Assembly (NCBI RefSeq): GCF_014489515.1
Contig: NZ_CP060782.1
Span: 372,001-436,000 of the forward strand
DNA: 64,000 nucleotides
Reading direction: 5' to 3'
Source: Sphingomonas sediminicola
GTDB lineage: Bacteria > Pseudomonadota > Alphaproteobacteria > Sphingomonadales > Sphingomonadaceae
The notes under the pieces: model-generated
What the model saw: the letters and a program-made list of their open reading frames with translations, nothing else
What the model was told of the DNA's origin: nothing
Databases searched by the model: none
Made by a program: the position numbers and the translations under genes
Part shown: positions 7,262 through 15,453 of the stretch, in pieces
Position numbering within the stretch: the first letter of the stretch is position 1
Layout: every line of letters starts with the position of its first letter

Positions 7262-9405
7262 CTAAAAGCCCAATCGAGCGGTCAGGCGGATGTCGCGCCC
7301 CGCAAGCGGCGCGAAATCCTTGAGCAGGCTCGTGCTTCGTCGCGCCTCGACGTCGAAAAGATTGTTTGCCGCAAGCGACAGCGAAAGCTCCGGATTGGCG
7401 GAGAAGGGATGCCAATCGACCGAGGCGTTCACGAGCGTGTAGCCCGGCGCGTCGGTCTCGATCGGGGCAGTGCGGTTGTGGTCAAACGCATGTTCGACTT
7501 CCAGCCGGCCATCGACCGTTCCGCGGCTGCCTTCGATCGCGCCGAGAATGCGGAGCGGCGGGATTAGGGGGGCGGGGCCATAGTCTTTCACCGTCGCATT
7601 GACTGCATCGGCCTGGAGCTCGCCCTTCCACTTTACGCCAAACGCTTCACCAAACTTCGCCAGCGCCTGGGCCTCGAAGCCGTAATAATTGGCTCGGCCC
7701 TGGAGATATTGGAAAACGGGAAGATCCCTTCCGTTTCGCCCGTAGGCGCCTGGAAGATGAAGTTGGAGAAGCGGTTGTAATAGAGGCTGGCATTCAGCGT
7801 GACGGGTCCCGACTGGCGATGCAGCACGGCCTCGACGCCGACGCTAGTTTCGGGATTGAGATTCGGATTGCCGACTTCGAACGACTGGCTGGCGCCGTGC
7901 GGGCCGTTCGAGAACAGTTCGTCGATCGAGGGGGCGCGTGAGCTTCGCGACAAGGTCAGCCCTGCGCGCCAGCCGGGCGAGAATTCGTACTGACCGCCCA
8001 GCGAGCCCGACCAGGTGGTGAAGTTGCGTGAGCGGTCGGGCGTCGCGAGCTGCTCGTCGGCGTCGGCGGTGAGCTTGCTGAACTCCACCCGAGCGCCGCC
8101 TTCGACCCGGAGCGGCCCGCTAACCAGGGTTTGCAGGGTGAAAAGCCCGGCCTGGCGCTGCCTGCTGTCGGGCAGGAACTTCTCGTCGCCTTCGATCCGT
8201 GCGTTGCGGTCGAGGTACTGCAAGCCGCTCGTTCCGCCCCACCCCGCGCGCTCGCTCTGGATCAGCTCGAAGCGGCCCTCGCCGCCCTTGCTGAAGAAGC
8301 TCGAGCCGATTGCGCCCGTGTCGTCGAGCTCGTCGTGATGATAGTCGGCATAACCGCCGCGAGCACGGATTTGGCTGAAGAATCCACGGACCGGAATCTC
8401 CGCGCGGAAGTCATAGCGGGTCTGTTCCTGGTCAATCGTCGGCGCTTCCGCTTCCACGCCCGAGACCAGCGAATAGCGGATCGGCACCTGGTAGGTCGCG
8501 AGGTGCCGGGTGATAGACGCGCCGATGTTCAGCCCGCCATCGACATAGGCAAGGCCGATGGCGCCTTCCTTGGATTCGGCGGCGGAATTGGGAAGCTTGC
8601 CCTTGAGGTCGGCGAGCGTCTGGATTTCGGGATCGGGACTGGCCAAAGCCTGCTCGCGAAGATCCTTCGAAAGGATATGGCCGCCTGTCCGCAGGTCATC
8701 GCTCTTCTGCCAATTGCCATCGAGATGGACGACGAACTTGCCGGCGAGGGGAACGTCTACGGACCCGTTGATGAGGCGCTCGTTCGCCGCCGTGCCGTAG
8801 CTCGCGAGAGCGGTCACCCCGACGGCATTCTTGGGAAGACGGCGCGGAATGCGCGCGTCGATCACGTTCACGACGCCGCCGATCGCGGACGACCCGAACA
8901 GCAGGGCCGAGGGTCCGCGAAGGACCTCGATGCGCTCCGCTGTGACGGGGTTGATGGAAATGGCGTGATCCGGCCCGGACGACGACAGGTCGAGGCTGCC
9001 AATGCCGTCTGTGAGAACCCGGACGCGGTCGCCGGATAGACCGCGAAGAACGGGCGCGGACGCGGCCGGGCCGAAGCTGGTCGCGCTGACGCCGGGCTGG
9101 CGAGCAAGGGTCTCGCCAATGCTCGGACGCACTTCGCGAGTGAGGTCCGCCTCGTCGAGAACCGAGATTCCGCCAAGCACGTCGTTCGCCTTGCGGCGCA
9201 CGCCGGTCACGACGACGTCGTCGCTGTGGTCGTGATGCGCGTCATCGGCGTTGCCGGGCTGCGGCGCGTCGGCCGTCGCAGCCGAAGAGTCGCCCGACGT
9301 GGCACTCGTCGCGGACACATCGGTCCCAGCGACCGTCGTTTCGGCCCAGGCGGGGGATGCAAGGAAGGAGAGGGCTGCCGCGAGGGCCAGTCGAGAAGAG
9401 ATCAT
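7262..9405 (-). CDS. ZnuD-like TonB-dependent outer-membrane receptor, apparent frameshift near 7726-7728
   Basis: The frame starts with a signal peptide (residues 1-21), a His-rich segment (HHDH at 57-60), a TonB box ('VVVTGV', 64-69), a plug domain ('EADLTREVRPSIGETLARQP', 'IEVLRGPSALLFGSSAIGGV') and a long beta barrel. After 'GRNGRD'-equivalent coding near 7728 the frame breaks at a CCC run; one added base restores 'LPVFQYLQGRANYYGFEAQ' and the barrel continues to the typical terminal 'RDIRLTARLGF'. The metal-type His cluster and 'SGPDHAISINPVTAERIEVL' resemble the zinc receptor ZnuD. A Zur-box-like site upstream supports zinc uptake. Repaired length is about 714 residues, normal for the family. 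Confidence 0.8.
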
Positions 9406-9451
9406 CAGTCCTGATTTGCTACGGATCGAATCGAATCACGCGTACGTCGGA

Positions 9452-9466
9452 TGTTATACTATTACA
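9452..9466. promoter_or_regulatory. Zur-box-like palindrome between the ZnuD-like gene and thrC
   Basis: TGTTATACTATTACA is a near-perfect dyad around a central C, close to the TGTTATA-N-TATAACA form reported for the zinc repressor Zur in alphaproteobacteria. It lies 47 bases before the receptor start and 39 bases before thrC, so zinc-bound Zur could repress the receptor and perhaps affect thrC. Confidence 0.6.
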
Positions 9467-9505
9467 ACCTCGCTTCGACGAACCGCGCGGGCTACGGGGC
9501 GGCCC

Positions 9506-10708
9506 ATGTATGTGACCCATCTTGAATGCTCGCTTACAGGCGAGCGTTATCCCGCGGGCGAGCCCCACAATCTCAGCAAGGCGGGAAAACCGCTGCTCGT
9601 CCGATATGATTTCGAGCGGGCACTACGAACGCTGACCCGTGAAAGCCTGGGTCAGCGTGAAGCCGGGATGTGGAAGTGGCGGGAGCTGCTGCCGCTGCCC
9701 GAAGACGCCGAGCCGGTGAGCCTGGGCGAGCCAGAGACGCCGATCGTTTCCCTGACGCGAACTGCGGCCAAGGTCGGAGCTTCTAGTCTGCTGGTGAAGG
9801 ACGAGGGCCGCCTCCCAACCGGATCGTTCAAGGCGCGCGGCCTGGCGATGGCGGTCTCGATGGCGAGGCAGTTCGGGATCAAGAGAGTCTCGCTTCCGAC
9901 CAACGGCAATGCCGGCGCGGCGCTCGCCGCTTATGCCGCCCGCGCCGGAATGGAGGCCGTGGTGGTCTGCCCGGCCGAGACGCCCGAAATCAACGTGCGG
10001 GAAACGGCCGCTTATGGCGCGCGCGTCTGGGTCGCGGACGGTCAGATCGATGAATGCGGTCGGCTGATCCGCGAGGGCGCGGCGGAAGGTCGCTGGTTCG
10101 ACTGCTCGACGCTGAAGGAGCCGTACCGCCTCGAAGGCAAGAAGGTGATGGGCTTTGAGCTGGTCGAGCAGCTCGGCTGGAAAGTTCCTGACGCGATCTT
10201 CTATCCGACCGGTGGCGGCACCGGCCTGATCGGCATGTGGAAGGCGTTCGACGAGCTGGAAGCTGTCGGTCTCATCGGTCCCGAGCGGCCGCGCATGTAC
10301 GCCATCCAGGCGGTCGGATGCGCGCCGATGGTCCGTGCATTCGAGCGGGGCGACGAGTTCGCCGAACGCTGGGAAGGCGCGGCAACGGTCGCGACCGGAA
10401 TTCGCGTTCCCAGCGCGGTCGGCGATTTCCTCATCCTGCGCGCGGTGCGTGAGAGCGGCGGCGCGGCGATCGCCGTCGATGAGCAGGATATCCTGCAGGC
10501 GGTCGAGGACGTGGCACGCGACGATGGAATGCTGCTGTGCCCGGAAGGTGGCGCTGTCCTGGCGGGGTGGCGTGCCGCGCTCGCTCGCGGCCTGGTCACG
10601 CTCGATGAAACGGCGCTGCTGTTCAACTGCGCGAACGGAAACAAGTACCCGCTGTCGGACAATTCGCGGCGGCTTCAGCTCGCGAGCGCGAAGGCGGAGA
10701 TGCTCTGA
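9506..10708 (+). CDS. thrC: Threonine synthase
   Basis: A 400-residue PLP enzyme of fold type II that turns O-phosphohomoserine into threonine. The PLP lysine is in 'LPTGSFKARGLAM' (K109); 'SLPTNGNAGAALAAYAARAG' is the phosphate and substrate loop, and 'YPTGGGTGLIGMWKAF' is the Gly-rich cofactor-phosphate loop. The short N-terminal 'LECSLTGERYPAGEPHNLS' segment is typical of this class. I start at the ATG at 9506 because it opens the conserved N-terminus; an upstream in-frame start would overlap the receptor gene. A hairpin follows the stop. The Zur-like site upstream is shared with the divergent receptor. Confidence 0.92.
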   Translation: MYVTHLECSLTGERYPAGEPHNLSKAGKPLLVRYDFERALRTLTRESLGQREAGMWKWRELLPLPEDAEPVSLGEPETPIVSLTRTAAKVGASSLLVKDEGRLPTGSFKARGLAMAVSMARQFGIKRVSLPTNGNAGAALAAYAARAGMEAVVVCPAETPEINVRETAAYGARVWVADGQIDECGRLIREGAAEGRWFDCSTLKEPYRLEGKKVMGFELVEQLGWKVPDAIFYPTGGGTGLIGMWKAFDELEAVGLIGPERPRMYAIQAVGCAPMVRAFERGDEFAERWEGAATVATGIRVPSAVGDFLILRAVRESGGAAIAVDEQDILQAVEDVARDDGMLLCPEGGAVLAGWRAALARGLVTLDETALLFNCANGNKYPLSDNSRRLQLASAKAEML

Positions 10709-12984: not shown

Positions 12985-15453
12985 ATGGATCTTGCGGCGC
13001 ATCTTCATGGATTGTCCGAGGAGGAAGCCGCTTCGCGCCTTGCGCGATACGGCCGTAACATCGTTCGCGAGCCGAGGTCGCGCGCTCTCCACCAGATCAT
13101 CTTCGGGACGCTTCGGGAGCCCATGTTCCTGCTCCTTCTGGCTGCCGCAGCACTCTACCTCACGATCGGCGATCTGGCGGAGGGCCTATTCCTGACCGCT
13201 GGCGCAATGCTGTCCCTTGGGCTGGTGATCTTCCAGGACGCACGCAGCGAAAGGGCGCTGAAAGCGCTGAACGCGCTGGCGGAGCCGCAGGCGCGCGTCA
13301 TTCGCAACGGGGTCACGCGGTCCGTCCCTTCTGGCGAGCTGGTCCCGGGGATATCGTCCTGCTGGGTGAGGGTGGGCGGATTCCAGCCGATTCCGTCCTC
13401 GTCGATGGCGACGCGCTCGAGGTCGACGAGTCCGCGCTCACCGGCGAGTCCAGCCCATCCACCAAGAAGCCGGCAGGCGCCCAGCTGCTGTCGGACGAGC
13501 TACAGCCGCCCGGCGAGGCGGAAACGAGTTCTCTCTTCGCTGCGACCTTGATCGTGCGCGGGCAAGGTGTCGCGCGCATCGTTCGCACCGGCACGTCCAC
13601 CGAAGTGGGTAGGATCGGCGTCGAGCTCGGTGAAGCGGTCGAAGAACCGACTCTCGTGCAACGGGACGTTCGCCGGCTGGTCGGCATCATCGGCGTGCTT
13701 GCAGTCGGCTTCTGCCTGGCCGTGGCCCTGGTCTATGGATTGCTTCGGGGCGACTGGCTGGCCGGCGCGCTCAGCGGACTCACGCTGGCGATTTCGCTCG
13801 TCCCGGAAGAATTTCCGATGGTCCTGACGATCTTCATGGCGCTCGGCTCGCTTCGGCTGGCCCGGCACAATGTGCTGGTCCGGCGGTCTGCCGTCATCGA
13901 GACCCTCGGCGCGACCACGCTCCTCTGCGTCGACAAGACTGGGACCATCACCGAAAACCGGATGGCGCTACGGTCGGTATGGCGCTCGGGCCAGCGCTTC
14001 GAGCTGTCGGGAGGGCGGCCGGCCGGCGCCGATCCCGTCTTGCGCGCGGCGCAGATGGCGTCCGCGCTCCGCCCGCACGATCCGATGGATCTTGCTGTGC
14101 ATAATGCCTGTTCGGAGCGGCCGGCCGGCTCGCCACTCAGGTCCTATCCGCTGCGGCCTGATTTCCTTGCCTTCGTCCAGGTCTGGCCAACTGCGGGCGG
14201 TGGTGTGCTCTATGCCGCGAAGGGCGCCCACGAGGCGCTGGTGCCCCTATGCGATGAGGAAAAAGGGACGGGGCTGAGGCCGCGGCCCATGAGCTTGGCT
14301 CCGAAGGCATGCGAGTCCTGGCGGTTGCCACTGCGCAGTTTGCAGATGACCCGCAGCTCGAGCCCGCCGCAATCCGCTATCGTCTCGAAGGGCTCCTGGG
14401 CTTCGGGGATCCGGTGCGGAGTGATGTACCCCAAGCGCTGGCTGAAGCGCAGCGGGCCGGCGTGTCGGTCGCGATGATCACCGGCGACTTTCCCGCGACC
14501 GCGCTGGCTTCTGCGCGAGCCGCCGGCATCTCAACGACTGGCGGAGTGGTCACTGGAGCCGACCTCGCCAAGGCGGCCGACGTGCCGGTCGAAGCACGCA
14601 TCTTCGCGCGCATCATGCCGGGCCAAAAGCTGGCCCTCGTGCAGGCATTCAGGCAGGCGGGCCACGTCACTGCAATGACGGGAGACGGGATCAACGATGC
14701 GCCCGCGTTGGCGGCCGCGGATATCGGAATTGCGATGGGGCGGCGGGGCACCGACGTCGCTCGCGAGGCAGCGGACCTCATTCTACTCGACGATCGCTTC
14801 GCTTCCATCGTCCGAGGAATAGCGCTCGGCAGGCGAATCTTCGCCAACCTGCGCCGGGCGATGACCTACATCACCGCCGTCCACATCCCGGTGGCGGGTT
14901 GGCGCTGATCCCGATCCTCGTCGGCCTTCCGCCGATGCTTTTTCCGATGCACCTCGTGCTGCTCGAGCTGCTGATCGACCCGCTTTGTTCGATCGTGTTC
15001 GAAGGGGAGCGCAGCGAATCCGGCGCGATGCTGCGGTCGCCGCGCCGCCGCGACGAGCGGCTGTTCGGGCGCCGCGAGCTTATGTTGGCGATCGTCCAGG
15101 GAACGGTGGTGCTCGCGTCGGTCTTTGCGTTCTACGCTTGGCTGAATGCGTCGAACGTTGGAGAGCAGATCGCCAGGGCCGGTGCCTTCGTTGCGCTCGT
15201 TACCGGTCACCTCAGCCTCGCGCTGGCCGAAAGCAGCTCGCTCGGTCAGCCGCTGTTGGCTCGGGGGCGAGCCGTGTTCTGGGCGATCGTCGCCGGTGCG
15301 GTCCTGCTCGTCACCGCCTCGCTGACGGTTCCGTTCCTGCTCGAAGTGCTGCGCTTCGCCATGCCACCCCTCTCGATCCTGGCGATGAGCATGTTCATCG
15401 GGCTGGTATCGGGTGGATGGTCCGTCGTCCTGCGTTCACGCCCAATCCACTGA
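12985..15453 (+). CDS. Cation-transporting P-type ATPase, three apparent frameshifts
   Basis: The gene opens 'LHGLSEEEAASRLARYGRNI' (cation-ATPase N-terminal domain) and shows 'DESALTGESSPS' (actuator TGES near 13438), 'SLVPEEFPMVLTIFMALG' (membrane helix 4), 'LCVDKTGTITENRM' (phosphorylated Asp at about 13932) and 'TGDGINDAPALAAADIGIAM' (about 14677). The frame breaks at GGGG 13347-13350, AAAAA 14260-14264 and GGG 14896-14898; each is mended by one added base. Repaired length is about 824 residues, typical of type II Ca/Mg-like pumps. PEEF in place of the PEGL of Ca pumps marks a bacterial subgroup of unknown ion. It is inner-membrane and divergent from Usp. Confidence 0.85.

Follow-up and report, generated by a model that had tools for sequence, protein, structure and literature searches.

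The stretch of DNA analysed here (the window) comprises 64,000 nucleotides and corresponds to positions 372001-436000 of a single-contig genome of 2.757 Mb with a completeness of 90.6%. Within it, a divergent intergenic region of exactly 100 bases (9406-9505) separates the ATG of a TonB-dependent receptor gene (9405, minus strand) from the ATG of a gene annotated as thrC (9506, plus strand). The near-palindromic Zur-type box TGTTATACTATTACA occupies positions 9452-9466 and is separated by 46 bases from the ATG of the receptor and by 39 bases from that of thrC, in agreement with the initial annotation, which had placed a Zur-type motif midway in this gap. The receptor is encoded on the minus strand by a main frame (7633-9405) carrying the plug and most of the barrel, and by a C-terminal part in another frame (7262-7591). 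The plus-strand frame at 9506-10708 encodes a PLP-dependent enzyme that carries the annotation threonine synthase (NF006050/PRK08197).

The box reads GTTA-TACTA-TTAC, one change from the GTTA-N5-TAAC type known as the proteobacterial Zur motif (PMC4176598, in excerpt), and 12 of its 14 non-central columns are self-complementary. At up to three mismatches it is unique on both strands of the window, with a chance expectation of 0.02. A scoring matrix built from the sites of relatives gave 18.6 bits for the box vs 7.5 bits for the second-best site of the window, and 12.3 bits for the site of the Zur operon. A separate matrix was derived from three other sites of the same genome, the window site being omitted; one of these seeds (three mismatches) was chosen for its position before the Zur operon. 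Genome-wide, TGTTATANTATWACA gave 25 strand-matches with up to three mismatches vs 30 for the reversed control, so that only close matches carry weight, and matches with none to two mismatches were found at only three places. The genome has two genes of the FUR family. The best NCBIfam match of one of them is Zur, at 56 bits and below the cut-off of 167; assigned to Zur on this best but sub-cut-off model, it stands behind a MerC gene that is preceded by the box GGTTACAACATTACA (L013/L023), and the Zur-like gene of this genome thus has a similar site of its own. A TonB gene, coding for an energy transducer, is preceded at a distance of 34 bases by the Zur-like box TGTAATGTTGTAACA (L008, 1501-1515; G000:C1:2476541), as would be consistent with a TonB that works for zinc receptors. 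A strong Zur-like box, of 20.9 bits (L007, 1501-1515; G000:C1:1606133), has a DUF4126 gene on one side and on the other a gene whose small product begins like a signal peptide, as judged by eye, and has no Pfam match. Both flanking genes are candidate Zur targets.

Pfam analysis of the receptor revealed a plug (residues 74-178) and a barrel, as expected for a TonB-dependent receptor, and a signal peptide and the TonB box VVVTG were read by eye. Among proteins of solved structure, the best match is ZnuD of Neisseria meningitidis (4rdr, E 5e-51), whose zinc ligands are Asp99, His100, Glu340 and His499 (PMC4557270, in excerpt). By comparison, these correspond to D146, H147, E359 and H503 of the receptor, with a constant offset of 14, and the 33 remaining receptor rows, from 31 distinct genomes, likewise show D-H-E-H, except that one of them ends before the last ligand. 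The four retained ligands, together with the matrix scores and the sites in the gaps of the genus described below, support the initial reading of a Zur box next to a ZnuD-like receptor. The main frame scored 265.7 bits with the ZnuD model NF038289, far under its cut-off of 950, and we therefore refer to the protein as ZnuD-like and not as ZnuD. The HHDH His cluster to which the initial annotation had drawn attention is indeed present (residues 57-60), but it precedes the plug, away from the zinc site of ZnuD and not in extracellular loop 3, a difference from the N. meningitidis protein.

What had been overlooked is the splitting of the receptor frame, a further difference from ZnuD. A tblastn search with the receptor of G206, the nearest sampled relative, matched two frames, over residues 12-604 and 602-755, and in relatives the receptor is intact in one open frame. 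The gene may therefore be dead or misassembled. An apparently split P-type cation ATPase, its family recognized by eye, is encoded nearby on the plus strand (12985-14477, as 12985-13551 and 13548-14477). That a second gene close by looks split as well points to assembly errors, decay of the receptor still being possible.

In order to relate the box to its two neighbours, we compared 61 genomes of the genus; the gene annotated as thrC was present in 42 of them, and its upstream side could be viewed in 41, over up to 4.5 kb and less at contig ends. Every divergent-receptor gap was scanned with the matrix of three sites (24 rows, representing 23 distinct genomes once one duplicate had been dropped, namely 22 of the genus including the present one, and S. 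hankyongi, where a CDF gene separates the box from thrC). Best sites of 11.3-20.5 bits, as expected of Zur operators in relatives, were found in all 23, and among 300 mononucleotide shuffles of each gap 0 to 4% scored as high; as the genomes are related, conservation of the box does not count independently for each of them.

The comparison of gene orders was informative as to which gene the box accompanies. The receptor and thrC are directly divergent in 14 of the 41 genomes, and in seven others the receptor is divergent from a gene of the CDF family that is followed by thrC. Same-strand arrangements consist of receptor, CDF gene or its remnant and thrC (five genomes) or of receptor and then thrC (four); the CDF gene is inverted in one genome (G158). 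Five genomes have a CDF gene followed by thrC with no receptor in the viewed stretch, and the remaining five have neither gene by thrC. Upstream of thrC, a receptor was thus seen in 31 of 41 genomes, and at least one of the two, receptor or CDF gene, in 36. A rearranged cluster with a CDF remnant before thrC was observed in G176 (L222). In all nine same-strand receptor genomes the best site, with a score of 10.8-23.1 bits, precedes the receptor, and none of the sites listed between the start of the receptor and thrC exceeds 3.2 bits. Likewise, in G158 (L237) the box remains by the receptor and none adjoins thrC. Among the genomes with a CDF gene only, G183 and G190 have weaker sites ahead of that gene (13.2 and 11.9 bits), no site was found in the viewed stretch of G179 and G182, and too little sequence was visible in G188 for a site search. 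In the five genomes with neither gene nothing above 7.5 bits was detected, the viewed stretch of G181 being 1.6 kb. Where the gene order differs, the box therefore follows the receptor and not thrC, which argues that it belongs to the receptor.

Distances were measured in the 14 direct arrangements. The box lies 36-53 bases from an in-frame receptor ATG in 12 of them, the exceptions being G172 (20 bases) and G165, where the script found no such ATG. Its distance to the first aligned codon of thrC varies from 39 to 103 bases, being shortest in the present genome (39) and in G206 (40) and 67-103 bases in the other 12, six of which have a thrC ATG further upstream.

The CDF gene scored above the cut-off of the CDF superfamily model but not above that of ZitB; its substrate is presumably zinc. 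In several genomes thrC abuts or overlaps its end. A quick tree of 31 proteins of the genus and three outgroups, in which 13 of 31 inner branches are weak, does not separate genomes that have the CDF gene from those that lack it and requires at least four changes, a pattern that fits repeated loss of this gene but does not prove the direction of change. The named genomes with the most similar thrC products (76-81% identity) all belong to Sphingomonas, namely S. hankyongi, S. segetis, one strain and metagenome bins. Outside the clade the association was not seen: in 74 of the best 80 named loci (of 583), neither a receptor of this kind nor a CDF gene was present within a distance of 3 kb, some loci being shortened by contig ends, and the six loci with one are the clade's own.

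Whether Zur could nevertheless reach thrC depends on the position of the thrC promoter. A candidate -10 element, CTAC, lies at 9492-9495 on the plus strand, 14 bases before the ATG. An element of the form [CT]TA[GC] occurs at -12 to -15 of the thrC ATG in all 14 direct arrangements, while 2000 shuffles gave a mean of 0.6 and a maximum of 5. It is also found at the like place in seven of 12 other arrangements, all of them lacking a box beside thrC. A promoter-like element at a near-fixed distance, with or without a box, suggests that thrC has a promoter of its own. The idea that zinc control is shared with a threonine synthase, raised as a question in the initial annotation, is made doubtful by these data, since the box goes with the receptor, thrC carries its own promoter-like element even where no box adjoins it, and the enzyme label is itself doubtful (see below).

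The strongest competing explanation is that in this lineage the thrC promoter has come within reach of bound Zur, one box repressing both the receptor and thrC. We regard this as a minority reading. With a -10 element at 9492, the -35 element would fall at about 9468-9473, adjoining the box, and with a spacing of only 39 or 40 bases, the shortest of the 14, Zur control of thrC is possible in the present genome and in G206. The frequent presence of a CDF gene or zinc receptor upstream of thrC, and the genomes in which thrC abuts or overlaps the end of the CDF gene, also speak for such control. Against it stand the longer distances of the other 12 direct arrangements, the lack of a good site between receptor and thrC in the nine same-strand genomes, and the five genomes that have thrC with no receptor, CDF gene or good box in the viewed stretch; one of these five, G163, clusters with G206 and the present genome in the tree, with a support of 85.

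The identity of the enzyme itself was then considered. It contains a PALP domain and scored 584 bits with the NF006050 equivalog model (cut-off 303) but only 159 with TIGR00260 thrC (cut-off 167.1). Its structure, predicted from 36 sequences with a pLDDT of 91, retrieved threonine synthases as the 21 best of the 50 matches listed in a fold search, the best structures being class I threonine synthases with about 33% identity. The fold and an identity of about 25-33% are thus shared with class I enzymes (2d1f, 6cgq, 1uim, 2c2b), whereas the active-site motifs, as compared with three bacterial enzymes, are changed from SFKDRG to SFKARG, from STGNT to TNGNA and from NSVNP to TLKEP. Hardly any of the changed residues vary among relatives: A110, T132-A136, T202, L203, E205 and P206 showed no variation in the 36 aligned sequences.

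Two other identities were rejected. The N-terminus, THLECSLTGERY...HNLSKAGKPL, is zinc-ribbon-like with three of four cysteines lost, as compared with a four-cysteine version that we take to be the intact zinc-ribbon form. A Zur-regulated zinc-free (C-minus) paralogue is not indicated, as much the same N-terminal text is found in members with and without zinc genes nearby and as the genome holds no close second copy, the next matches to the enzyme reaching at most 38 bits, a weak score, with 25-27% identity. Cysteate synthase was considered on account of CapA2, presumably with a role in cysteate making, among the fold-search matches; the TIGR03844 score was 53.5 against a cut-off of 324.9.

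We then compared the genomes for the remainder of the threonine pathway. In the present genome, 90.6% complete, searches revealed no match to homoserine dehydrogenase (PF00742), to ThrB (TIGR00191, not even a faint match), to thrB_alt (TIGR00938) or to class II ThrC, and no genes for a supply of O-phosphohomoserine by homoserine dehydrogenase and homoserine kinase were therefore found. Throughout the 61 genomes of the genus, homoserine dehydrogenase was detected in 14, class II ThrC in 11, ThrB above cut-off in 11 and the present enzyme in 42. ThrB above cut-off and class II ThrC occur in exactly the same 11 genomes, and class II ThrC is absent from 35 of the 42 genomes with the enzyme, being present in seven. 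When faint sub-cut-off matches are counted, ThrB rises to 48 of 61 genomes; faint thrB_alt matches were seen in ten, in a weak test that was above cut-off in only one of 14 control genomes. No homoserine dehydrogenase match was obtained in 47 of the 61 genomes, and 50 had neither class II ThrC nor ThrB above cut-off. From these sequence comparisons we predict that the threonine branch has been widely lost in this clade.

With homoserine dehydrogenase, ThrB and class II ThrC not found, a role of the enzyme in making threonine de novo is hardly conceivable here unless genes were missed. The alternative that it is a genuine threonine synthase whose pathway genes are unrecognized or absent from the assembly is accordingly judged improbable. 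The NF006050 score, the class I structures as nearest relatives and the incompleteness of the genome favour it; the unmatched models, the restriction of ThrB above cut-off to genomes with class II ThrC and the invariant replacements in the three motifs weigh against it. The label 'threonine synthase' is thus doubtful in this genome: the protein appears to be a PLP enzyme related to ThrC that probably takes no part in the synthesis of threonine in this organism. As for its function, we would guess at an amino-acid lyase with an imported substrate; a Microcystis ThrC with threonine deaminase activity has been reported (PMC12172450, in excerpt).

There is very little to recommend the idea that the box is a chance AT-rich palindrome or the site of another Fur-family regulator, for which the excess of reversed-control matches and the second FUR-family gene might be cited, given a similar site in every divergent-receptor gap examined, like sites beside the Zur operon and the TonB gene, and a neighbouring receptor with the zinc ligands of ZnuD.

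Taken together, the site is likely to be the Zur operator of a ZnuD-type zinc receptor, with thrC a neighbour through the gene cluster and transcribed from its own promoter. By analogy with the Zur family and with Caulobacter, zinc-loaded Zur would bind the box when zinc is sufficient, probably over the -10 region of the receptor, and repress it, and a shortage of zinc would allow the receptor to be made. 'thrC' would be transcribed from its own, nearly leaderless promoter. It would lie beside the box as a member of a genus-specific cluster of receptor, box, CDF-family transporter and thrC, this lineage having probably lost the CDF gene.

The receptor half of this arrangement has clear precedents. 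In Caulobacter crescentus, Zur represses the TonB receptors znuK, znuL and znuM (PMC4176598, in excerpt), alphaproteobacterial Zur sites thus preceding zinc TonB receptors as does the candidate GTTA-N5-TTAC motif here. Zur also represses import and activates export in Streptomyces coelicolor, as with zitB (PMC5472717, in excerpt), and Caulobacter Zur is described as a dual regulator of import and export with czrCBA (PMC4176598, in excerpt). A single box between a receptor and a CDF gene would therefore be an understandable design, and seven genomes of the genus have one such box, with a ZnuD-like receptor on one side and, on the other, a CDF-family gene behind which thrC follows. The window has no CDF gene at that place. 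In the literature searched for threonine synthase or thrC with Zur and zinc, no threonine synthase under the control of Zur was described. In one excerpt retrieved for thrC and the Zur regulon, thrC figured as an integration site only, the word threonine is absent from the Caulobacter paper (PMC4176598) and from a Zur review (PMC6103462), and a search for Sphingomonas and Zur found only seemingly unrelated papers.

The Zur box of the ZnuD-like receptor is well supported by comparison; it is an ordinary case that adds this Sphingomonas clade to those with a known design. The unexpected part is that a PLP enzyme labelled thrC keeps company with zinc genes in most of the genus genomes viewed. This label should not be used for inferring metabolism, since in most genomes of the clade neither homoserine dehydrogenase nor ThrB nor class II ThrC was seen. 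More tentatively, a mislabelled PLP enzyme may form, with the receptor and the CDF transporter, a zinc module of the genus under one Zur box, in which loss of the CDF gene, as in the window, would bring Zur to act directly on the enzyme. If so, the Zur regulon would gain an amino-acid enzyme with no known role in zinc.
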